Positions 20,533-55,168 of a stretch of 64,000 bases of DNA are shown here, one piece after another. The notes beneath the pieces are model-generated. The model saw only the letters and a program-made list of their open reading frames with translations. It searched no databases and was not told the origin of the DNA. Every line of letters begins with the position of its first letter. Positions within the stretch are counted from its first letter, which is position 1. Source of the stretch: Caulobacterales bacterium RIFCSPHIGHO2_01_FULL_70_19 (lineage in GTDB: Bacteria; Pseudomonadota; Alphaproteobacteria; Caulobacterales; Caulobacteraceae); the NCBI GenBank assembly GCA_001794825.1, contig MGLK01000003.1, positions 53,429 to 117,428 on the forward strand. Direction: 5' to 3'. The translations under genes and the position numbers were made by a program.

Positions 20533-20541
20533 TGCGAGGGG

Positions 20542-21189
20542 TCATCTCGGGTCTCTCCAGCTGGGTTCGGATGGCGCGAAGGCGAGGGTCGCGCTGAAGC
20601 GGGCGCGGCCGAACACGTCCCAGGCCGGCGTCTCGGGCGTCCGGGAGGAGGGGGCCTGCGTCGCCGGGCGAACGACGAGCGGCGCTTCGGCGGCGGCGTT
20701 GGCGGTGACGGGTCGGGGCGGGGCCAGCGACAGGGCGACGGCGGCGCGCTCGACGCGGGCGACATAGCCATTGCGGAAGCCACGCTCGGGATGTCCGGTG
20801 TTGTAGCGCGACAGGGCGACCCGCAGCGCCGCCTGGCGGTCGCCGTCCGGCGTGGGCCGGTAGCCCGCGCGGAGGACGACGCCGGCGGCGGACAGGTTGC
20901 GGCAGGGATCGAACGCCGCCTCGACCGAGAGACCGAGCCAGGCCAGGTTGGCGCTGTTGATCTGGGCCAGGCCGAGGTCGAGGTTGGCGCCGCGCGCCAG
21001 CAGGCCGCGGGCGATCCGGGCGGCGTCGGCGGCGTCGCGGGGACGCCGGGCGGGCCGGGGACCGCGGTTCACGCCGATGGCCAGCGGATCGAACCGGCTT
21101 TCGGTCCAGGCGATGGCGGCCATGGTCTGCGGCGCCGCCTGGGGCGCGCAGGCCTGGGACAGGGCGAGGATGAGGTTGAGGTCCAGCAA
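20542..21189 (-). CDS. Lytic transglycosylase, VirB1-like
   Basis: IAWTESRFDPLAIGVN; NLDLGLAQINSANLAWLGLSVEAAFDPCRNLSAAGVVLRAGY; ALSRYNTGHPERGFRNGYVARV. Confidence 0.83.
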   Translation of the reverse strand: MLDLNLILALSQACAPQAAPQTMAAIAWTESRFDPLAIGVNRGPRPARRPRDAADAARIARGLLARGANLDLGLAQINSANLAWLGLSVEAAFDPCRNLSAAGVVLRAGYRPTPDGDRQAALRVALSRYNTGHPERGFRNGYVARVERAAVALSLAPPRPVTANAAAEAPLVVRPATQAPSSRTPETPAWDVFGRARFSATLAFAPSEPSWRDPR

Positions 21190-21264
21190 GGCGGGCTCCG
21201 TTCAGGACCCCAGCAAACGCGATCCCGCCCTCCGCTCGCGACCCGCGGCCGGCCTGTCGGAGAT

Positions 21265-21531
21265 CTACGGTAGGAAGCTGCGGGACTCCGGGTCCGGCCC
21301 GGTGCGGGCGGCGAGGCGGGCGACGGCCTGGATCCGGGTGCGCACGCCCAGAGTTCGGCAGGCCCGCATCAAGTGTTCGTCGACGGTGCGGCCGGAAATG
21401 CCGAGACGCTCGCCGATCGCCGCCGAGGTCAGACCGCGCGCGGCGAGGGCGAGGCAGTCGCGTTGCCGCGCCGACAGGGGCTCGTCGGCGGCGGGCGGCG
21501 CGGCGTGCGGGCACGGGGGCGGCGGCGTCAT
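21265..21531 (-). CDS. Short stand-alone LuxR-type HTH protein
   Basis: LSARQRDCLALAARGLTSAAIGERLGISGRTVDEHLMRACRTLGVRTRIQAVARLA; no N-terminal sensory/receiver domain. Confidence 0.75.
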   Translation of the reverse strand: MTPPPPCPHAAPPAADEPLSARQRDCLALAARGLTSAAIGERLGISGRTVDEHLMRACRTLGVRTRIQAVARLAARTGPDPESRSFLP

Positions 21532-21590
21532 GGCCCCAGCAAAACGCCGAATGAAATCCACGGCCAGACCGCAGCTTTCCGGCGGGGCGT

Positions 21591-22034
21591 TTACGGCCGG
21601 GAGTTCCCGGCGCCGCCCTCGTCCTCGCCCCCGGCGGGCGTGACGAGCTTCGCGACCCGTGTCTCGAGCCAGTCCTGGGCCGCGCTGTCGCGGCGGACCG
21701 CCTGCAGCGCCAAGTCCTTCATGGTCCGGGTGAAGGCGTTGATCAGGGTTCGGGCGTCGAGCTCGACGATGACGTCGCCGAGGGTCTCGTCGAACTCCTG
21801 CAGGGCCACGGTCAGAATGGTCATCAGCTTGTTGTCGGCGCTGCGCAGGGCGAACTGCGGCGAGCCGAGGGCGAGGGCCGCGAGGATGGCGTAGGGGTCG
21901 GAATCCGTAACCTCCGCAAAGCGATGGATGCGTTCCAGATTGATGCGCCCGCCGCCCGCCTCGAAATGTTCGTAGGACCGCAGGGCCATGCCCATGACCC
22001 TGTATCTCCGACATGACGTCCACGCCGTCGCCAT
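21591..22034 (-). pseudogene. Apparently 5'-truncated HTH (XRE-like) regulator
   Basis: Reads as the C-terminal part of an HTH regulator (MALRSYEHFEAGGGRINLERIHRFAEVTDSDPYAILAALALGS...NKLMTILTVALQEFDETLGD). Upstream residues MATAWTSCRRYRVMG look like fortuitous antisense translation of the lasso B gene. Confidence 0.6.
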
Positions 22035-22629
22035 TGGTGAGGATCTGGCCCTTCTCGACCTCGCGCGGGACGCCTATCTTTGCCTGCCCGACGGCGCCGC
22101 CGCCTTGGAGCCCGGTGTCCAGGCCGCGATACGGCCGGGCGCGGTGGCCGACGCCCTCCAGGCCGGGGGCTTGCTGGGTCCCGGGCCGCCGGCCGCGTGG
22201 CCGGACCTGCCGCCGCTTCCGGTGCGAACCCTCATCCATCAGCCCCTGTCCCGCGCCGTGTCGCCCCGGGGTCTCGCCGCCGCCGTCGGCGTACCGGCGG
22301 ACATCCGCCGGGCCCGCCGGGGCGAGGGGCTCGTCGCCTGGCTGGCGCTCGCCGAGGCCCGTCGCCCCCTGTCGCGCGATGCGGAGGCGGTGGCGGCGGC
22401 GGCGCGGCAGTTCTGGGCAGTCGGCGCCTGGTTGCCGGTCGAGGGCGAATGTCTGGTGCGCTCCGCCATGCTGGTCGCCTTCCTGCGCCGCATGGGCCTT
22501 TCCGCGGACTGGGTGTTCGGTGTCAGGCTGTGGCCCTTCGCCGCCCATTGCTGGGTGCAGCTCGGCGACCTCTGTCTCAACGACGACGTCGAGCGGCTGT
22601 GGCCCTATACGCCCCTGTACCGCCGATGA
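21994..22629 (+). CDS. Lasso peptide biosynthesis B protein (PqqD-like N-terminus plus transglutaminase-like cysteine leader peptidase)
   Basis: N-term MTLYLRHDVHAVAIGEDLALLDLARDAYLCLP; C-term GECLVRSAMLVAFLRRMGLSADWVFGVRLWPFAAHCWVQLGDLCLNDDVERLWPYTPLY contains the Cys/His/Asp catalytic context of McjB-type proteins. Confidence 0.9.
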   Translation: MTLYLRHDVHAVAIGEDLALLDLARDAYLCLPDGAAALEPGVQAAIRPGAVADALQAGGLLGPGPPAAWPDLPPLPVRTLIHQPLSRAVSPRGLAAAVGVPADIRRARRGEGLVAWLALAEARRPLSRDAEAVAAAARQFWAVGAWLPVEGECLVRSAMLVAFLRRMGLSADWVFGVRLWPFAAHCWVQLGDLCLNDDVERLWPYTPLYRR

Positions 22630-24419
22630 CGGTCCCGGGACCCGCAGACCACGGCTATCTGATCCTTGACCGGAGCGCCCTGGGCGAGGCGCACCGCGCG
22701 CCGGTCGAAGCCGCGGTCGAGGATCTGGTGCGTCAGGGATGGCGCGCCTCGCACGCGGTCGAGCACCTTCAGATCCTGCTCGGTCCACGCTCGCGTCTCA
22801 AGGTCCGCCAGGTCGGCCGCCGTCATTTCCTGATCGGCGACTGGCGCGGGCCCAGGCCGCTGTCGACCCTTGTGGCCGCCAACAGCCGACCCGCGGACCT
22901 GGCCCGGGCGGTCGTCGGCGCCGGCTGGGGGCGCTACATCCTCGCCTGGCGCGATGACGAGGGCCGTCTCGCCCTGCTGCGCGATCCCACCGGGGCCGTC
23001 GACTGCGTCTGGTGGCGCCATGGCGGAGCCGTGCTGGCCGTGGCGGAGCCGCCGCGCCAGCTGGATCCTGTCCTGCCGGCGGACCTGGCCATCGACTGGA
23101 CCGTGCTGCGCGAAATCGCCGAGGCGCCCGAACTGCTCGGGGACCGCCTGGCGCTGACGGGGCTGGCCGCGGTCAATCCCGGGACGCTCGCCCTGATCTC
23201 AGGGGACCAGGCCTCCATACCGGTGTGGCGGCCCTCGACCTTCTGCCGGTCGGGCGCCGGGTGGGACGAAAGCCCCGGCAGCCTGGCCGGGGTGGTGGAC
23301 GGAACGGTCGCCGACCTGGTCGATCCGCACCGCCGGATCGTGGCCGAACTCTCCGGCGGACTGGATTCGGCCATCGTCGCCGGCAGTCTGGCCGCGACCG
23401 GCCGGGCCGGGCGGGCCCGGTTCCTCAACTTCCATGGCGACTGGCGCGAAGGCGACGAGCGGCCTTGGGCCGAGGCGGTCGCCGACAGGCTGGAACTCGA
23501 CCTCGCCACCGTCCGCAAGCCGGTCGAGGCCGTCACCCTGCGCCAGCTGCGCCCCCTCGGCGAAAGCGTGCGTCCGGCGCTCCAGGGCGTCGATGTCACC
23601 TATGACGGCGAGGTCGCCGCGCGCCTGCGCCGGGGCCGGGCCACGGCTCTGGTGACCGGGCAGGGCGGAGACGCGGTCTTCTTCCAGGCCCCCGATCCCG
23701 CGGTGGCGGCCGACCGGTTCCGGCGCGAGGGACCGCCCGGCCTGTCGCCGGCCTTTCTCGCGGCGGTCGGGCGCTGGACGCGGCATTCGGCCTGGACGGT
23801 GCTCGGCTGCGCCCTGGGACTGCGCGCCCCCAGACCCCGGCCCGCGTCCGGGCGGCGGCATCCGTGGTTGGAGGACCTCGAGGATCTGCCACCGGCCAAG
23901 ACCGGACAGCTGCGCCAGTTCGTCAACGCCCAGCTGTTCTGGGGCGACTGCCTGCGCGCCCGCGCCGGGGATTTGCTCCATCCCCTGCTGAGCCAGCCGG
24001 TGGTTGAGCATTGCCTCGCCATCCCCGCCGACCGGCTGATCGCGGGCGTGCGCGATCGCGGTCTGGCGCGTCAGGCCTTCGCCGACCGCCTGCCGCCCAT
24101 GCTGATCAAGCGTCGCAACAAGGGCGATCTCAGCTGCTTCTACGGTCATGTCACCCGCGCCAGTCTCGCGACCCTGAGGCCGCTGCTGCTCAACGGGCTT
24201 CAGGTCGACCAGGGTCTGTTGGACGGCAAGGCCCTGGAGCGGGACCTGGCGGAGGATCGGCTGATCGTCGGGCCGGGCTACAACCGGTTGCTGGTCGGGG
24301 CCGTGCTGGAGGTCTGGGCGCAGCACTGGGAGGGACGGATCGCCGACATCCGGCGGCACGGATCGCGGCTAAGCCCGGCGAGGATGGGGAGTGGAGGCGG
24401 CGCAGACTGGCCGGGTTGA
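22626..24419 (+). CDS. Lasso peptide cyclase C protein (asparagine synthase-related)
   Basis: VAELSGGLDSAIVAGSL ATP-pyrophosphatase loop; TGQGGDAVF; ATGA overlap with B gene; C-term LATLRPLLLNGLQVDQGLLDGKALERDLAEDRL. Confidence 0.9.
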   Translation: MTVPGPADHGYLILDRSALGEAHRAPVEAAVEDLVRQGWRASHAVEHLQILLGPRSRLKVRQVGRRHFLIGDWRGPRPLSTLVAANSRPADLARAVVGAGWGRYILAWRDDEGRLALLRDPTGAVDCVWWRHGGAVLAVAEPPRQLDPVLPADLAIDWTVLREIAEAPELLGDRLALTGLAAVNPGTLALISGDQASIPVWRPSTFCRSGAGWDESPGSLAGVVDGTVADLVDPHRRIVAELSGGLDSAIVAGSLAATGRAGRARFLNFHGDWREGDERPWAEAVADRLELDLATVRKPVEAVTLRQLRPLGESVRPALQGVDVTYDGEVAARLRRGRATALVTGQGGDAVFFQAPDPAVAADRFRREGPPGLSPAFLAAVGRWTRHSAWTVLGCALGLRAPRPRPASGRRHPWLEDLEDLPPAKTGQLRQFVNAQLFWGDCLRARAGDLLHPLLSQPVVEHCLAIPADRLIAGVRDRGLARQAFADRLPPMLIKRRNKGDLSCFYGHVTRASLATLRPLLLNGLQVDQGLLDGKALERDLAEDRLIVGPGYNRLLVGAVLEVWAQHWEGRIADIRRHGSRLSPARMGSGGGADWPG

Positions 24420-24576
24420 CGGCCGCCTCGACGGCTCCACTGGGCAGCGATGCAGCCGCACGACTCGGCTTGATCATGACCCCGCGACAGTCGTCGCTGA
24501 AAATCGGATCTGGAAATGGAACGGTTGGGTATCCGTCCACGTTTCCAGTCAGTTCATAGTGAACGTCCTTCCTCCC

Positions 24577-24607
24577 GGACCGGCACGGTTGACGATCGTG
24601 CCGGTCC
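24577..24607. terminator. Strong hairpin downstream of lasso C (terminator or processing/attenuation element)
   Basis: ggaccggcacg-gttgacgat-cgtgccggtcc: perfect 11-bp stem, 9-nt loop; no downstream T-tract. Confidence 0.5.
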
Positions 24608-24634
24608 ACCCCCACTTCAGCCATCAGGCGAACC

Positions 24635-25174
24635 ATGATCAGAGCGCGACAATCGATGGTCGTCATCCTGTCAGCTGGAGCGCTGGCGGCGTGCAACGGC
24701 GGGCAATCTCTGGACCGCGGGGTAGAGACGTTCGGCGAAGGGGTGGGGGACGCTGCGGCGACGCCTCTGGAGGATCTGAACATCCGGCCCGCGGAAATCC
24801 CGGCGGTGCTGATCCAGGCCGCTGAGCGGCCTTATGACCTGGCCGGCCTTGGCCGTTGCAACGCCATATCGGCCGAGGTCATCCGCCTGGACGAGGCGCT
24901 TGGACCTGATCTCGACGATCCGGCGCGGGTTCAGGCCGATCAAAGGGATGATGTGGCGGCAGAAGCGGCGCTCGATGTCGTTCGAGACACCGTAACGGAC
25001 TTCATTCCCATGCGGAGTTGGGTGCGTCGTCTGACCGGTGCCGAGCAGCATAGCCAGCGCGTCCAGCAATCCATCCGGGCCGGGCTCGTGCGGCGATCCT
25101 TCCTGAAGGGCGTCGGCCTGCAAAGACACTGCCGGCCGCCCGCCGCTCCGCTTGACGTTCGCCCTCTCAGGTAG
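24635..25174 (+). CDS. Putative lipoprotein of unknown function
   Basis: Lipobox-like LSAGALAACNGG; AERPYDLAGLGRCNAISAEVIRLDEALGPDLDD; continuous ORF; C-terminal sequence repeated in decayed form at ~35.9 kb. Confidence 0.75.
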   Translation: MIRARQSMVVILSAGALAACNGGQSLDRGVETFGEGVGDAAATPLEDLNIRPAEIPAVLIQAAERPYDLAGLGRCNAISAEVIRLDEALGPDLDDPARVQADQRDDVAAEAALDVVRDTVTDFIPMRSWVRRLTGAEQHSQRVQQSIRAGLVRRSFLKGVGLQRHCRPPAAPLDVRPLR

Positions 25175-25252
25175 CTTCATCGGACGCTCCCGAGCGCCGA
25201 ACGATCCATCGGGTCATCCTGTTTCCGACTGGGGGTGTGGGGCGGCGCCTCA

Positions 25253-25440
25253 CCGAAGTCGGTCGGTCATCACAATCCCAGCCGTGTCGATCTCCTGATT
25301 TCGACCATGCCCCAGGGGCTGTCGACAGGACAGACGCTCCCCTGCACCCGATTCCGACGTCCCGGAGACTCCCGGTCAAGGCCCACGGCGGTTCGCACGA
25401 CGTTCCGCGCGCCCAGCGGAAGCCGGGACAGAACACCTGG
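25253..25440 (-). pseudogene. Decayed 3'-part copy of the PagL-like gene at 36898-37479
   Basis: By-eye nucleotide alignment, e.g. ggtcatcacaatcccagccgtgtcgatctcctga versus ggtcatcaccaggccggcggtgtcgatcccctgg, and gacgtcccggagactcccggtcaaggccc versus gacgtccccggagacttcccagtcaagcccc. Confidence 0.7.
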
Positions 25441-46789: not shown

Positions 46790-47423
46790 GCGTGCTCGGG
46801 ACTCTTGAGCAAGGGGCCGGGCCTCTGGCGCTGAGCGGCTCGCACCGGTTCGGCCTGACCTGGGGCCGTAGCCGCCGGGTTGATCTGTCGCCGAGCATCG
46901 ATGGGGAGCGGCCACCTACCCTCGCGTCCAGGAGGGAAGTTCGCCGAAGCCGCGCCGCACGGCCTGGCGCAATTTCCTTCAGGGCAAGGGCGGCGCCATT
47001 GCGCGGACCGCCCCCGGCCCGGCATTGAGCCGCGCTCGATCAAGGCCGGCGAGACGCCTCCCGATCACCGGCGACTCCGGGCTCGTCCCGATTCACCGGG
47101 GAGCAAGCGGGGGGCGTGTGGCCCCGCACTTGCCGCAGACCTCCATTTGACGGCGTTCCGACCAGGAAAAGCTGTGCCTGCAAAAAAGTCGGCGAACTCG
47201 CTTGAACATGAATGACTTGCCTCCCGCGAGAAAATGACGCTGGCAAAGCCTGCCCCCCGATCCTCAATGGGCAAACCCCCGGCGGGTTTCGTTGACAACG
47301 CCCGGACACACCGCCTCCATAGGCAAACTGCGCCAAGGTTGACGTCTTTGCACGCGTTTGGCACCGTTTTGATGTCCGCCCGCCGTTTCATGACCTCCAG
47401 CTCGGGATTCCCGATCCGGCCGT

Positions 47424-47640
47424 GTCATCGCGCAGTCTCGCGACCCTGAGCCGCTGCTGCCAAACGGCCTTCAGGTCCACCGGGGGCTGCTGGACGGCAA
47501 GACCCTGGAGCGCGATCTGGCGGAGGACCGGCTAATCGTCGGTCCCGCGATAACCGGTTGCTGGTCGGGGTCTTGCTGGAAGTCCGGGCGCGGCACTGGG
47601 AGGGTCGCCTCGCCGACGTTCGCCGGGCGCATCGGACGAA
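47424..47640 (+). pseudogene. Frameshifted 3'-terminal fragment of a second lasso C (cyclase) gene
   Basis: agtctcgcgaccctgagccgctgctgccaaacggccttcaggtccaccgggggctgctggacggcaagaccctggagcgcgatctggcggaggaccggct closely matches 24161 onward of the intact C gene; single-nucleotide deletions break the frame. Confidence 0.88.
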
Positions 47641-47683: not shown

Positions 47684-50179
47684 TCAGCTCGAGGGAATGC
47701 TCGCGGACTGGAGCCCCGACGCGTGTCCAGGATGGCGACAGCCGGGGACCTGAGCGGCCGGCCCCGGCGCGCGGGGGGCGTCGCCGAGCTCCGCGGGGCC
47801 CAGATAGCGGTCCAGCCAGGCGAGGATACGGGCGTGAAGGTCGCGCAGATTGGCGGGGCTGACGAACACATGGCCTTCGCCTGCATAGGTCACGAGATCG
47901 GCCTCGCGTCCCAGCCGGTACAGGGCCCCGAACAGGACATCGCCGCCGGCCGGGTCGAGGTCGCCCTCGATCAGCAGGACGGGCGTGCGGATCCGGTCGG
48001 CGAGGTAGATCGGACTGTTTTCGACATAGGCCTCGGGTCGCGCCGGCAGGCTGGCGCCGATCGCGCCCTGACCGCTCTCGGCCCAGCCCGCCAGGGCGTT
48101 GATCGGCACCCCGTCGTCGGGGGAGACCAGGAAATGCGGCGTCAAAGCATAGACCCGGGAGAGGTCGGCGTAGCCGGCCGAGGCGATCACGGTCCGGAAG
48201 CGCTCGCTCCGCGCCGCAGTCAGCAGAGCGGCGTGTCCGCCGTAGCTATGGCCGATCAGGGCCACGCGGGCCGGGTCGATCGGCGCCTGTCGGGCCGCCT
48301 GATCGACGATAGCGTCGATCCGTGCGGCCAGATCGTCCAGCCCCGTACCGGCGCCGCTGGGGCGAGGCAGGGCGGGCACAAGCACGGCATAGCCGTGGGC
48401 GGCCATGACGGCTGGATTGATGTGTCGCCGCTCTCCGCCTGGCCTGAGCCAGGATGGCGGAACGGGGTAGGCGGCGCCGGGGTAGAGGACCACCGCCACG
48501 GGGACCCTCCCGCCGCCGGGGTCCGGCGGCGGGAGCAGCAACCAGCTGGTCAGGACCTGGCCGTCCGGCCCGGGGTGGGTGACGGCTTCAATCCGGCCCC
48601 AGGCCAGCAGGTCGAGCGCGAGGTTGAGCGTCGCAAGCGGATGGTCGCCGTTCGGGTCGCGGCGCAGCAGGCGGGTCGATCCCATCGCCGAAAGGCGCTG
48701 CACGACCGCAAACCGCGCGTCCGGGCTGGCGGCGAGGAGGGTCTCGTCCGGGCCCAGCGGCGGCAGGCAGGCGCCGGAGCGCGACGCGCCGAGGCGGGTG
48801 AGACATCCGGCCTGCAGCAGGACGCCCGGCGTTGGGTCGACCTCGGTCGGGTTGGTTCGCGCCCGGCCGCCGCCGTCGGCGGCGCGCTCGCGGCTCTGCA
48901 CACGCCCGGGGAGACCCGGAGCTTCGGAGGGGGTGTCGAGGCGATACAGCCCGTCACCGCGTTCGATCCAGGCGTGACCGCCGGCCTGCAGCAGGCGTTC
49001 CGAGGGCTCTCGGACCGGAACGGTCAGGGCGTTCGGGTCCGCCCGAAGCCACGCCTGGGCCCCGTCTGTCGTCCGGACCTGGACGACGGGCGCTCCGCCG
49101 TCCCAGCCCGCCCGCACGAAGGGCATGCCGTCGGCCTGTTCGGCGACCCAGGGTCGGGCGTCGCCGAGTCGCACGGGCCGGGCCGGACCGGCGCGGGAGA
49201 TGCGCCAGAATCGGCCGTCGTCCCACGCCCCGCCGGGCGTCCGGCCGAAGGCCAGTACGGATCGCCCGTCCGGCGACCAGCTCAGCAGATGCGACAGGAT
49301 GTCCTGATCGGGCAGGGGCTCGTCCACTTGCCGGTTTTCAATGTCGACCAGCCACAGCCGCCTGCGTCGCGCCGGCGTCCCGACCCGCACCGGGGCGTCG
49401 CCGCTCGCCTGCAGATCCTCGGCGTCGGCGAGGACGGCGACCGCCGCGCCGTCCGGGGACAGTTCGAAGTCGAACAACGCCCCGATGGCGAGCTCCGTCT
49501 GGGCCCCCGTGCCGAGATCGAGGCGGACCAGGCGCGCCGGCGCGGCGGGATCGCGGTCGCCGCGACGCGCGCCGCTGGGAATCGAGACCGCGGAGGGCGC
49601 GTGACCCGCCTCGAACCGGCGCCACAGCGCCGCCTTGCGCGCCTGGGTCTGGCCGCCGAGGCGGAACACCAGGGGAAGATCGTCGGGCGCCCGCGAGATC
49701 AGGATGACCTCAGTCGCCGAGCGCCAGGCGACCGTGCGGCCGAGGCCGGTGAACTCCGGGGTCAGGGCGAACCAACGGGTTTCGCCGGTCGCCAGGGTCA
49801 GGACCCCGAGGCGCCAGCTCGTCTCGGTCAACCGGAAGACCAGCATCCGGTCGCCATCGGGGGAGAAGGGTCCGGAGACATAGCCGGTCGCGTGGCCGGG
49901 GTCGGAAATGACCCGCGGCGGCGCGCCGGACGTCGCGTCGTGTATCTCCAGACCGCTCAGCAGATGGGTGGTCATCAGCCCGAAACGGAAGCTTGCCGCC
50001 GACGACCAGGCGGCGCGGCGCTCGACGACGATCCAGCGGCCTCCTGGGCCGATCCGGACCTGGCCGAGACTTTCCTGACCCAGCACCGCCTCGATGGTGA
50101 CCGGCCGCGGCGTCTCGCCCACGCCCGGGCTGGCCGCCGTCCCGAGGACGGCGGCCAGCAGCAGACAGACCGGACGCAT
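47684..50179 (-). CDS. Lasso peptide isopeptidase-like serine hydrolase (AtxE2 family; beta-propeller plus prolyl-oligopeptidase-type catalytic domain)
   Basis: Signal peptide; VVERRAAWSSAASFRFGLMTTHLLSGLEIHDATSG; catalytic GHSYGGHAALLTAA, PVLLIEGDLDPAGG, GEGHVF; adjacent to TonB receptor and lasso C fragment. Confidence 0.82.
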   Translation of the reverse strand: MRPVCLLLAAVLGTAASPGVGETPRPVTIEAVLGQESLGQVRIGPGGRWIVVERRAAWSSAASFRFGLMTTHLLSGLEIHDATSGAPPRVISDPGHATGYVSGPFSPDGDRMLVFRLTETSWRLGVLTLATGETRWFALTPEFTGLGRTVAWRSATEVILISRAPDDLPLVFRLGGQTQARKAALWRRFEAGHAPSAVSIPSGARRGDRDPAAPARLVRLDLGTGAQTELAIGALFDFELSPDGAAVAVLADAEDLQASGDAPVRVGTPARRRRLWLVDIENRQVDEPLPDQDILSHLLSWSPDGRSVLAFGRTPGGAWDDGRFWRISRAGPARPVRLGDARPWVAEQADGMPFVRAGWDGGAPVVQVRTTDGAQAWLRADPNALTVPVREPSERLLQAGGHAWIERGDGLYRLDTPSEAPGLPGRVQSRERAADGGGRARTNPTEVDPTPGVLLQAGCLTRLGASRSGACLPPLGPDETLLAASPDARFAVVQRLSAMGSTRLLRRDPNGDHPLATLNLALDLLAWGRIEAVTHPGPDGQVLTSWLLLPPPDPGGGRVPVAVVLYPGAAYPVPPSWLRPGGERRHINPAVMAAHGYAVLVPALPRPSGAGTGLDDLAARIDAIVDQAARQAPIDPARVALIGHSYGGHAALLTAARSERFRTVIASAGYADLSRVYALTPHFLVSPDDGVPINALAGWAESGQGAIGASLPARPEAYVENSPIYLADRIRTPVLLIEGDLDPAGGDVLFGALYRLGREADLVTYAGEGHVFVSPANLRDLHARILAWLDRYLGPAELGDAPRAPGPAAQVPGCRHPGHASGLQSASIPSS

Positions 50180-53136
50180 CACCAGGTCCGGGTCAGCTGC
50201 AGGGCGATGAAGCGGCCGATGACGCTGGTGTTGGCCGCGTCGTAACCGATGCCTTCGGGCGCGTTGTAGAAAGGCGGATCGCGATCGAACAGATTCTGCA
50301 CGGTCAGGGCGACCGCAGACCCCTGGAAGGGGCCGGTCTCCGGCGCATAGCGGATCTGGGCGTCGGCCGTGGTCCAGGAGCCGATCCGCGACCCGGCGAG
50401 GTCGTGATAGGAATCGACATACTGCACCGAGGTCGAGGCGCTCCAGGGACCCCGCGCCCAAGCCAGGGAGCCGCGGCCCCGCAGACCGACTGGGTAGTTG
50501 GGGCGGTCGCGCAGCGACTGGGGCGAAGCGTCCGGGGTCGTCCAGCTGTCGAACCGGGCCAGATACGACAGCGTCAGTCCGAGGTCGAAGGCGTCCGGTC
50601 CGAGATCGAAGGCGTAGCGGGCGTTGGCGTCGATCCCCTCCACCTCGACGCGCGCGGCGTTGACGTAGCGGGCGTCGACGATCGCCCCATAGGACGTGGC
50701 CGGAAAGGCATCGCGCGAATTGGTGGTCGGCAGGTCGAAGATGGCCTGGACGGCGGCGCGGTCATCCGCGTTGTTGAGCGGATCGACGATGCGGACAAAG
50801 GCCGACAGGGCGGGATCGGACAGGGCCGTCAGGATGTTCTCGAAGGTCGGCTGGCCGATCCGGTTGTCGAACTCGGTGCGAAACCAGTTGAAGCCGAGCT
50901 TGAGCCCGGGAAGGGCCTGTGGCGCATAGTCGGCGCCCACCGTCCAGGTGTCGGCCTCTTCCGGCTTGAGGTCGGGATTGCCGCCGTACAGGATTATCGA
51001 CAGGACCTGCTGGGCGCCGCGCGGAAGGAAGGTCGGGCTCTGTCGCGCGGCGTCGTTCAGCTCGCGCAGCGCCGGAGCGCGGAAGGAGGCGCCGTAGTTG
51101 CCCCGCACGACGAGTTCCGTCGTGGGCTCCCAGACGAGTCCGATCTTCGGACTGGTGGTCTCGCCGATGTCCTCATAATTTTCGAACCGGGCCGCCAGCG
51201 ACAGCTCGAGCCGCTCGAAGCCGGGACGGCGGTTGTCGCGGCCGAACAACGGCACGCGCAGTTCGCCGAAGACGGCCGAGACCTGGCGGCTGGTGTCGGT
51301 CGCCACGCCCGTCGTCGGCGCAAGGCCGCTGCTGAAGCTGTCGTTGCGCCGCCAGAAGGTCTCCTCCCGGAACGCGAGGCCGGCGGCGAGGCGGACATCG
51401 CCGCCGGGCAGGGCGAACACCGGGCCGTCGAGCTGCAGGTTGGCCGAGCTGACCCCGGTCTCCGCCTGGCTGTGCGTCCAGCCGGAACTGATGAAGGCCA
51501 GAGCCGCGGGCGAGCTGACGCCGCCGCCGCCGAACGGGTTGAAAAAGCCGTCGCGCGCGGCGCTGTAGGGCGTCGCGGCATTGTCGGCGATCGCGCCCAG
51601 GGCTTCGCGCAGGAAGGTCGAATTCAGGGCGCCGAATGTCTCGTTGTCAGTTCGTTCGGAGGCATGGGCGACATAGGCGTCCAGGGTCCAATCGCCCGTC
51701 AGGTCGATCCGGGCGCCGACAGAACCGCCGAAGCTTTCGGCCTCGCCGCGGATGCCGGGATTGGGCAGGTCGTTCTCGAACGAATAGGCGATGGTGTGGG
51801 AGGCGGCCCCGGTCGGCGAGACGAACCACGGATTGCCGGTGTTGACGGTGAGCAGGGTGGCCGTCGGCGCCGAGACGGTCTCGTAGCGACGCTGGCCGTA
51901 GCGCGCGTCGGCGCTGACCTCAAGGCGCGCTCCAAGCTCCTGTCGCAGGGCGGTGAACAGGCTGTGCCGCGTCTGACGCGGCAGGACGTTCATGCCGCGC
52001 CTCTGGTTGCTGAGATTGGTCTGGCCGGGGAGGAAGGCGCCCGGCTCCAGATCGGTCCCGTCCTGGCCGGGCGGGATGGCGTGGGTCGAGACATAGCCGC
52101 CGGCGACGGGGTCGAAGACCACCAGATTGCCGGGCGCGGCGTAGTTGAGCCGCCGGTCCGATCCGCCGCGCCAGCGCAGATCCGCGTCGCCCGCGAGCCG
52201 CCGGGCCGAGACCGGCAAGGCCCCGCGGTCGTAATATTCATAGGTCCCCATCAGACTGCCGGAGGACCAGCGCCGGCCGAGGGTCTGACCCAGTTGGACT
52301 TCGTCGCTGGCCCCGTCGGCGGTTCCGCCGACCCGCAGACGGGTTTCCGCCCCGTCGTAGTCGTCGCGCAGGATGATGTTGACGACGCCCCCGACCGCGT
52401 CGGCGCCGTAGAGGGCCGAGGCCCCATCGAGCAGGACGTCGATGCGGGCGATGGCGCTCGTGGGAATGGTGGAGACGTCGGCGAAATCGCCCATGGCGCC
52501 GGTTCCGGCCATGCGCCGGCCGTTGATCAGCACCAGGGTGGCGTCGCTGCCGAGACCGCGCAGATTGACGCCGGAGGCGAAGCTGCCGTTGGTCGCGGTG
52601 CGATCCGCGCCGTTCTGCAGCGCGCCTTCATTGGCCGTGCCCCCGAAATTCTGGGGCAGGGCGGCGAGGGCCTGGGCGACGGTGGCGTGGCCGGCCCGGT
52701 CGATGTCGTCCCGGCTGATCATCACCACGGGCGAAGGTCCGTCGGCCACGCCGCGGATCAGGCTGCCCGTCACCACGACGTCGTCCAGCTCGGCCGGCTC
52801 CTCCGGGATCGCCGCCCGGGCGGCCGGGTCATAGAGGACGAAGACGTTCGGGCGCGAGCGCCGGTGGGCGAGACCGGTCTCGCGCAACAGAGCCGCCAGG
52901 GCGCCGTCCGGGGCGTGCTCGCCGCTCAGCCCGGGTGATCGTCGACCCGCGACAAGGGCGGCGGGGTACAGGATCTGGACGCCGCTCTGGCGGGCGAAGG
53001 CGGTCAGGGCCGCGTCGAGCGGTCCGGCCGCGATCTCATAGCGCCGCACCGGTTCGGCGGTCTGCGCCATGACCGGCGACGCCGAAGCCAGCATCAGCGC
53101 CGAGAGCGCCGTTGAACCCAATCCTCTGTGCATCAT
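50179..53136 (-). CDS. TonB-dependent receptor with N-terminal STN (signalling) domain
   Basis: RRYEIAAGPLDAALTAFARQSGVQILYPAALVAGRRSPGLSGEHAPDGALAALLRETGL (STN); VVVTGSLIRGVADGP; plug and barrel; ends LQLTRTW. Confidence 0.95.
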   Translation of the reverse strand: MMHRGLGSTALSALMLASASPVMAQTAEPVRRYEIAAGPLDAALTAFARQSGVQILYPAALVAGRRSPGLSGEHAPDGALAALLRETGLAHRRSRPNVFVLYDPAARAAIPEEPAELDDVVVTGSLIRGVADGPSPVVMISRDDIDRAGHATVAQALAALPQNFGGTANEGALQNGADRTATNGSFASGVNLRGLGSDATLVLINGRRMAGTGAMGDFADVSTIPTSAIARIDVLLDGASALYGADAVGGVVNIILRDDYDGAETRLRVGGTADGASDEVQLGQTLGRRWSSGSLMGTYEYYDRGALPVSARRLAGDADLRWRGGSDRRLNYAAPGNLVVFDPVAGGYVSTHAIPPGQDGTDLEPGAFLPGQTNLSNQRRGMNVLPRQTRHSLFTALRQELGARLEVSADARYGQRRYETVSAPTATLLTVNTGNPWFVSPTGAASHTIAYSFENDLPNPGIRGEAESFGGSVGARIDLTGDWTLDAYVAHASERTDNETFGALNSTFLREALGAIADNAATPYSAARDGFFNPFGGGGVSSPAALAFISSGWTHSQAETGVSSANLQLDGPVFALPGGDVRLAAGLAFREETFWRRNDSFSSGLAPTTGVATDTSRQVSAVFGELRVPLFGRDNRRPGFERLELSLAARFENYEDIGETTSPKIGLVWEPTTELVVRGNYGASFRAPALRELNDAARQSPTFLPRGAQQVLSIILYGGNPDLKPEEADTWTVGADYAPQALPGLKLGFNWFRTEFDNRIGQPTFENILTALSDPALSAFVRIVDPLNNADDRAAVQAIFDLPTTNSRDAFPATSYGAIVDARYVNAARVEVEGIDANARYAFDLGPDAFDLGLTLSYLARFDSWTTPDASPQSLRDRPNYPVGLRGRGSLAWARGPWSASTSVQYVDSYHDLAGSRIGSWTTADAQIRYAPETGPFQGSAVALTVQNLFDRDPPFYNAPEGIGYDAANTSVIGRFIALQLTRTW

Positions 53137-53217: not shown

Positions 53218-54204
53218 TTATTTTTGCGTGGACGAACCCGACAGGATCACCGTGCCGTCCGGCCGACGTTCGGCGGCGACCGGGTAGAGATCCTCGAGGG
53301 CGGCGACGAAGCCGTCGACATCGCCGGCGTCGAAGGCGCCGCTGACGGCGATGTCGGCGATGTCCGGCGCCTGGAGCTCTACCTTGCGCGCGCTGTAGCG
53401 GTTGACCTCCGCCACCGCCGTCCGGATCGGCACGCCGTCGAAGATGAGCCGGCCGGTGGTCCAGCTGGTGGCGCGCGCGGCGTCGACCGGCGTGACCTCG
53501 GGACGGTCGACGGTGGTGACGATCTGTTCGCCGGGCTTCAGGGTCCAGTCGGCCCGGGGGGCGCGCTGATCGCCGACCTTCACGCGTCCTTCGACCAGGA
53601 CCACGCGGGTGCCTTCGCCGACCCGCCGCACCTCGAAGCGGGTGCCTATCGCCGTGACCCGGGTGTCGCCCGCCTCGACGACGAAGGGCCGGCCCGGGTC
53701 TCCCTCGACGTCGAACAGGGCCTGCCCCCGCACCAGGGTGACCGAACGCAGGCCGGCGTCGAGCCGGACATGGACGCGGGTGTCCGTGTCCAGGGTCAGC
53801 CTTGACCCGTCTTCAAGCTGGATGGTCCGCAGTTCGCCGACGTCCGTCGCATAGGCGAGCGGCCGGTTGACCATCCACATCCCCGCCGCGGCCACGACGA
53901 CGAGGGCGGCGGCGAGACCGGCGAAAGGTTTGAGCAGGCCCGAGGCGGAGAATTTCGCCTGCGCGGGACGCGCCCGGCCCAAGGCCTCGGTCGTCAGCGC
54001 CGCGATGTCGGCGTCGCCGGCGAGCTCGCGGCTCGAGTCCCAGACGGATTCCACCCGCTCGTAAGCCCGGGCGTTGTCGGGGTCCCGCCGCCAGGCGCTG
54101 AACGCCTTGACGTCGTCCGTCGACACCCGGCGCTGGCTCAGCCGGGCGAACCAGGCGGCGGCTTCCCGCCGCCGGATGTCGAGGTCGTCGTCGACCGTCA
54201 TCAT
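53218..54204 (-). CDS. FecR family anti-sigma factor
   Basis: EAAAWFARLSQRRVSTDDVKAFSAWRRDPDNARAYERVESVW; YATDVGELRTIQLEDGSRLTLDTDTRVHVRL. Confidence 0.95.
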   Translation of the reverse strand: MMTVDDDLDIRRREAAAWFARLSQRRVSTDDVKAFSAWRRDPDNARAYERVESVWDSSRELAGDADIAALTTEALGRARPAQAKFSASGLLKPFAGLAAALVVVAAAGMWMVNRPLAYATDVGELRTIQLEDGSRLTLDTDTRVHVRLDAGLRSVTLVRGQALFDVEGDPGRPFVVEAGDTRVTAIGTRFEVRRVGEGTRVVLVEGRVKVGDQRAPRADWTLKPGEQIVTTVDRPEVTPVDAARATSWTTGRLIFDGVPIRTAVAEVNRYSARKVELQAPDIADIAVSGAFDAGDVDGFVAALEDLYPVAAERRPDGTVILSGSSTQK

Positions 54205-54211
54205 ACCCTGC

Positions 54212-54697
54212 CTAATCGTCCAGTCGCGCCACGCAATGCTCGAGCGCCTTCGACATCCGCCATTCGACGGTCTTGACTTTGAGCCCGCGCGCGGCGGCGA
54301 TCTCCGCATAGGTCATACCGCCAAAGCGGCTCAGGACGAAGACGTCCCGGTAAAGGGGCGGCATCGTCAGCACGATCTGCTTCAGCAACAGCTGGTCCGC
54401 CTGGGACGCGGCCTCGGCGAGAGCCGCGGGCTCGGCCGCCAGGGATTGGCGTCTGGCGCGGCGGCTTTCGTCCCGCACGAGGTTCATGGCGATCCGCAGC
54501 AGGAAGGCCCGGGGGTGGCGGATGTCGCCGATACGGTAGGGCGCGGCGCGCAGATAGGTGTCCTGCACCACATCGGCGGCGCGATCCGGATCGACATGGG
54601 CCCTGAGCCGGCCGTCGAGCCAGCCCGCATAGCGGCGATAGAGGCTGTTCAGCCCCTCCGCCGCTTCCGGGTCCAGCTGCCTGGTGTCGGTCAACAC
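54212..54697 (-). CDS. FecI-type ECF RNA polymerase sigma factor
   Basis: LYRRYAGWLDGRLRAHVDPDRAADVVQDTYLRAAPYRIGDIRHPRAFLLRIAMNLVRDESRR; probable GTG start at 54697. Confidence 0.93.
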   Translation of the reverse strand: MLTDTRQLDPEAAEGLNSLYRRYAGWLDGRLRAHVDPDRAADVVQDTYLRAAPYRIGDIRHPRAFLLRIAMNLVRDESRRARRQSLAAEPAALAEAASQADQLLLKQIVLTMPPLYRDVFVLSRFGGMTYAEIAAARGLKVKTVEWRMSKALEHCVARLDD

Positions 54698-55168
54698 GCC
54701 TCTCCGTCCGGGGGGCAGAACCGGAATCCTCAGGCGCGAGGGCTCGGCGTCGACCCGGCGCAGGCGTGCGCAGGATCGGACCGCCGTTGGCGACGGGCGC
54801 GCCGGGCGCGCGTCGTTGTGTTTGACTTCGCACAGGGGATTCCAGGCCCCTGCCGGCGCAGGCGCCGACGCCCCACCATGAATCAATCGGAATCGCGACG
54901 CAAGGCGGAGGGGTCGGGCGTTGGAATCCTGCGAAACGAGGCCCGCTACTTCAGCGCGCAGCGCCGCCTCCGCCCTGGGGCGAACCCCGGCTCCGGCTGC
55001 GCGCCTGTCTCACGGCGCCCGACCGGAGGTCTGTAGGGGCCGCATCGCCGCGGTTCAATCCGCCTGGCGGCGAGGCCGCCGCAATAATTCTGCGGCCAGC
55101 CCGCAAAACATCGACGTTGCCGAGGTCGGGCGGGCGCGGCTACGCAAGGAGGCCTGACAACCTGCGGT

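Follow-up and report, generated by a model that had tools for sequence, protein, structure and literature searches.

The window, the whole 64,000-nucleotide stretch of Brevundimonas DNA analysed here, very probably contains a former isopeptidase-type lasso cluster whose production head was lost through one illegitimate deletion. Comparison of its sequence with orthologous loci strongly supports one clean event that would have joined a truncated regulator gene directly to the beginning of lasso B and removed the precursor gene. The event is an ordinary loss, well resolved, and the locus is a broken member of the isopeptidase-type lasso clusters. Clusters of this type have a GntR gene ahead of the precursor gene, with the genes for TonB and the sigma/anti-sigma pair lying past the isopeptidase (PMC9266682). 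Similar to the alpha-proteobacterial examples of the astexin, caulosegnin, benenodin and sphingopyxin type (PMC9266682), the cluster of Brevundimonas genome G048 and a second cluster in the window's own genome, on contig C14, carry GntR, A-B-C, isopeptidase, TonB receptor and FecI/FecR. As opposed to those known clusters, the window locus has neither A nor GntR and its C lies 23 kb from the isopeptidase, and the relatives of the window locus additionally have an XRE-type regulator in divergent orientation, and precursors with tandem cores.

The reverse-strand open reading frame at 21591–22034 encodes 147 amino acids and has two unequal parts. An XRE/HTH-type regulator remnant (21591–21996, minus strand) corresponds to residues ~35–168 of a full-length family of ~168 amino acids; in the alignment, homology begins at MGMALRSYEHF and covers the C-terminal ~134 residues, with residues 1–34, including HTH helices 1–2, missing. 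The rest (21997–22034, minus strand; MATAWTSCRRYRV) is a spurious N-terminus inside B, its first ~13 residues being antisense read-through of lasso B that has no regulator homology. The homology stops exactly at the ATG at 21994–21996, which is the B start codon (MTLYLRHDVHAV; homologues, MTRYLKPDVHAV). The first-pass annotation had described the C-terminal part of an HTH regulator abutting B on the opposite strand, conserved up to the B start and antisense beyond, with no intergenic room for a promoter or an A gene; the alignment of the full-length family bears this out to the base. A search for the full-length form found orthologues in Brevundimonas genomes G102 (98.5% identity to the remnant) and G048 (97%), and the family occurs in 66 of 131 Brevundimonas genomes. 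A weak but consistent Pfam HTH_31 match is present in 18 of the 19 aligned family members; the window remnant, scanned alone for an HTH, gave no match, and a complete helix-turn-helix is absent from it. The dN/dS of the remnant is 0.35 on the window branch versus 0.05 and 0.13 on the other branches, a hint of relaxation that comes from a handful of changes. A search of solved structures for this family returned none.

In the close relatives G102 (contig C26) and G048 (contig C39), the orthologous locus is intact, with the full-length regulator, a divergent promoter region, GntR, A, B and C, and these clusters are mostly 91–94% identical to the window in DNA. Two blastn blocks, one pairing window 20534–21996 with G102 L038:16211–17674 (94.5% identity) and the other window 21994–25300 with L038:18994–22300 (91.5% identity), share in the window the three bases 21994–21996, an ATG microhomology common to a codon of the regulator and the start of B. 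The letters read CATGCCC-ATG-GCCTCC at the left side in G102, TTCGGCG-ATG-ACCCTG at the right side and CATGCCC-ATG-ACCCTG in the window. Between the two ATGs, G102 has 1,322 bp, the length missing from the window relative to it, comprising regulator codons 1–34, the promoter region, all of GntR, all of A and the sequence leading up to B. No mobile element, Ns or repeat is present at the junction, and the combination of a 3-bp microhomology with no mobile element would fit illegitimate recombination or slippage. The intact gene order is also found in the C14 paralogue, G077 and G002; because G048, C14, G077 and G002 all have it, the deletion is the derived state, in the window lineage. Plasmid records searched with 20534–24421 gave no match.

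These comparisons show that the ancestral order was regulator (minus strand), promoter region, GntR, A, B and C. In the window lineage, ~1,322 bp was excised at the ATG microhomology, from regulator codon ~34 to the B start codon, so that the regulator lacks the N-terminal half of its HTH, and B–C have lost both their A gene and their native upstream region. A single deletion taking the regulator N-terminus, the promoter and the precursor had been proposed in the first-pass annotation, and the intact G102 and G048 loci, the 3-bp junction and the 1,322 bp lost support it; all three parts went as proposed, together with a GntR gene whose loss had not been suspected.

The precursor is missing throughout the window. 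When its 1,338 six-frame open reading frames were searched with a profile built from 32 precursor units, the best match had an E of 0.13, upholding the earlier reading of no precursor around B–C and the C fragment or upstream of FecI; the same profile recovers the C14 precursor at E 2e-33. Pattern scans of the window in all six frames found nothing above noise. An A gene of the expected kind (Thr at −2, and Asp or Glu at position 7–9 of the core) is absent from the window and present in C14 and relatives. An orphan A elsewhere in the genome was considered and rejected: the search recovered the A of the intact C14 cluster, which is near neither half of the window locus, and the best other match, on contig C5, has E 0.1 and a stop.

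The Gly-core precursor assumed in the first-pass annotation proved to be the wrong model for this family, in which cores start with Ala, have Glu at position 9 and occur in tandem. In G102, the orthologue of the missing A reads MKTATTPRLIGLGSARIATR/ADATEGDMEQIPVRLYESAG-VRADLVRLGSAEQATR/ADSTTGDFEQIPVRLWQQG, two units in tandem; both combine a leader-like motif, LGSAxxxTR (Thr at −2), with a core starting with Ala. Glu occupies core position 9 in 31 of the 32 family units and position 8 in the other, with the putative core boundaries assigned from lasso rules. In about 20 Brevundimonas loci, a single open reading frame holds two or three units (L005:9685–9912; L090, L091, L093–L102 and L104–L110, upstream of B); G017, G089 and G019 instead encode single-core precursors in two or three separate genes. 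Within the closest B subfamily, to which the locus-by-locus survey was confined, nearly all complete relative loci examined show A upstream, as a gene or as a match; G110 and G075, whose contigs end inside or at B, were left out of this judgement. Single-core Gly1 rules would miss tandem-core precursors, as the earlier reading did. The open literature searched, which most subscription journals lie outside, contained no account of tandem-core lasso precursors, and a limited literature search found no published account of this precursor-less locus.

The second lasso cluster of the genome, on contig C14 (L005), was found with PF13471 and the regulator remnant as queries. Its order is a VirB1-like transglycosylase, a LuxR-type HTH gene, the regulator (minus strand, 168 amino acids), GntR (plus strand), A, B, C, isopeptidase (minus strand) and TonB receptor (minus strand). 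It shares the gene order of the window locus, at ~74–77% DNA identity over the regulator, B, C, isopeptidase and receptor, but is contiguous and retains the full regulator, GntR and A. Alignment blocks at window 20653–21995 and 21990–24421 skip only the stretch between regulator and B, and the alignment resumes from 47.4 kb. The GntR regulator that should precede a precursor, deleted from the window, is present in C14 (PF00392 above cut-off) and in the stretch of G102 that the window has lost. The C14 precursor (L005:9685–9912) has the putative cores ADSHTGDMELIPVRLYEPTG and ADSPTGDFELIPVRLWQQG.

Lasso B (21994–22629, plus strand, 211 amino acids) and lasso C (22626–24419, plus strand, 597 amino acids) are open and free of internal stops. 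B matches NF033537 at 71.7 bits (cut-off 33) and PF13471 above its cut-off, which assigns it as a B2-type transglutaminase-like leader peptidase; the RRE part is presumed by analogy with fused proteobacterial B proteins. Its start codon fits 21994 better than 21988, and it is 88–89% identical to B of G102 and G048. C is an Asn-synthetase-like macrolactam synthetase with the SGGLDS motif, 92% identical to its G102 counterpart, with PF00733 above cut-off and weak, below-cut-off matches to the lasso cyclase models NF033561 and NF033535. In a three-taxon comparison, B and C each have a dN/dS of 0.25 on the window branch, a value inside the range seen on the branches of G102 and G048. Relaxed selection on B–C as proof of disuse was rejected; the lack of detectable relaxation means that the loss was recent, or that B–C are still selected or act in trans. 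Against a dead locus stand the stop-free frames and the dN/dS that is not raised, so that any disuse is invisible in the sequence. If the production head was deleted as set out above, the regulator remnant would no longer bind DNA, B–C would be silent or transcribed fortuitously, and no lasso peptide would be produced from the window locus.

It is improbable, although the best of the alternatives, that B–C are still expressed and process the C14 tandem-core precursor in trans, the deletion having cost only a redundant precursor. The open B and C frames and their window-branch dN/dS of about 0.25 would suit such a role, as would the C14 precursor, which shares 81% identity and the LGSAxxxTR leader motif with the G102 counterpart of the missing A. 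However, C14 owns a B and a C, the B proteins of the window and C14 are only 65% identical, and the native upstream region of the window B is gone with no promoter-like site found in its place (a sigma-70-like promoter was sought at 21200–22200, a weak test as the host is an alpha-proteobacterium). There is a small chance that, in this cluster family with tandem leader–core precursors, the window B–C serve the C14 precursor, in which case the cell would have two sets of processing enzymes for one precursor, along with two systems for uptake. That the junction is an assembly artefact, made by joining the flanks of sequence missing from the assembly, is very unlikely: the assembly is a draft in 42 contigs and the intact C14 copy has eight Ns just upstream of B (between A and B, L005:9936–9943), but the window junction has no Ns, the sequence on either side of it is specific to the window and differs from C14, the breakpoint lies outside repeats, and a 3-bp overlap alone would not make an assembler join the flanks. 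A natural HTH-less short regulator, one that might for example pair with the C14 regulator or antagonise it, is scarcely credible: the remnant does keep the conserved C-terminal region and 73% identity to the C14 regulator, but it has an antisense of B for its N-terminus, has lost the HTH match and has no counterpart among the 18 aligned relatives, the partial match in G058 (from residue 29) being a 45%-identical paralogue in a different arrangement.

The other half of the original cluster, at 47.7–54.9 kb and 23 kb away from C, consists of minus-strand genes for an isopeptidase-like S9 peptidase (47684–50179), a TonB-dependent receptor (50179–53136) and FecR-like and FecI-like regulators (53218–54886). 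The isopeptidase matches PF00326 above cut-off and NF033523 (Atxe2 family) at 65.9 bits, below the cut-off of 400, and is collinear with those of G102, G048 and C14. The receptor, 96% identical to that of G102, is named from its sequence and its collinearity with C14, G048 and G102, and the FecR/FecI pair, collinear with the same three, is named by homology and position. Beside the isopeptidase, where the 23-kb segment ends, lies a second, decayed copy of the 3′ end of C (47417–47631, plus strand), 82–86% identical to the corresponding part of C in the window, G102 and G048. G102 resembles the window in having both the 23-kb separation and the decayed C 3′ copy and, like G048, differs from it in keeping the full regulator, GntR and A; in G048, C adjoins the isopeptidase. 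Because G102 has the separation yet keeps A, the split is a separate, older event, and the separation was rejected as the cause of the loss of A.

With the deletion of the production head as the preferred reading, the cell may retain uptake and linearisation of such peptides, because the isopeptidase, TonB receptor and FecI/FecR half is intact and C14 can still make a closely related peptide. The locus would then be a base-exact case of an isopeptidase-type lasso cluster dying from its producing end, with the uptake and linearisation half surviving and an intact sister in the same cell. Producer and receiver functions are genetically separated here, which makes the role of the mostly non-antimicrobial lasso peptides more testable.

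The surroundings of the locus hold several further features. The 24421–47417 segment contains efflux and other genes, and no integrase was noticed in it. G110 carries a different insertion, of 4.2 kb (L046:2331–6557), at the same boundary between C and isopeptidase, with SulP-like transporter and USP-like open reading frames named by eye, so this boundary seems prone to insertion. The right flank past FecI, from 55.5 kb onward, differs among the window, G102 and G048, and the region is thus variable. The conserved left neighbour is a VirB1-like lytic transglycosylase (20542–21189, minus strand; NF010438 and PF01464 matches), which in the window directly follows guaA, a known island integration site. 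A VirB1-like transglycosylase borders both lasso cluster copies; on C14 (region L005:4013–7822) it has a VirB4/TraE-like gene beside it, and these neighbours suggest that the cluster travels with a conjugation locus.
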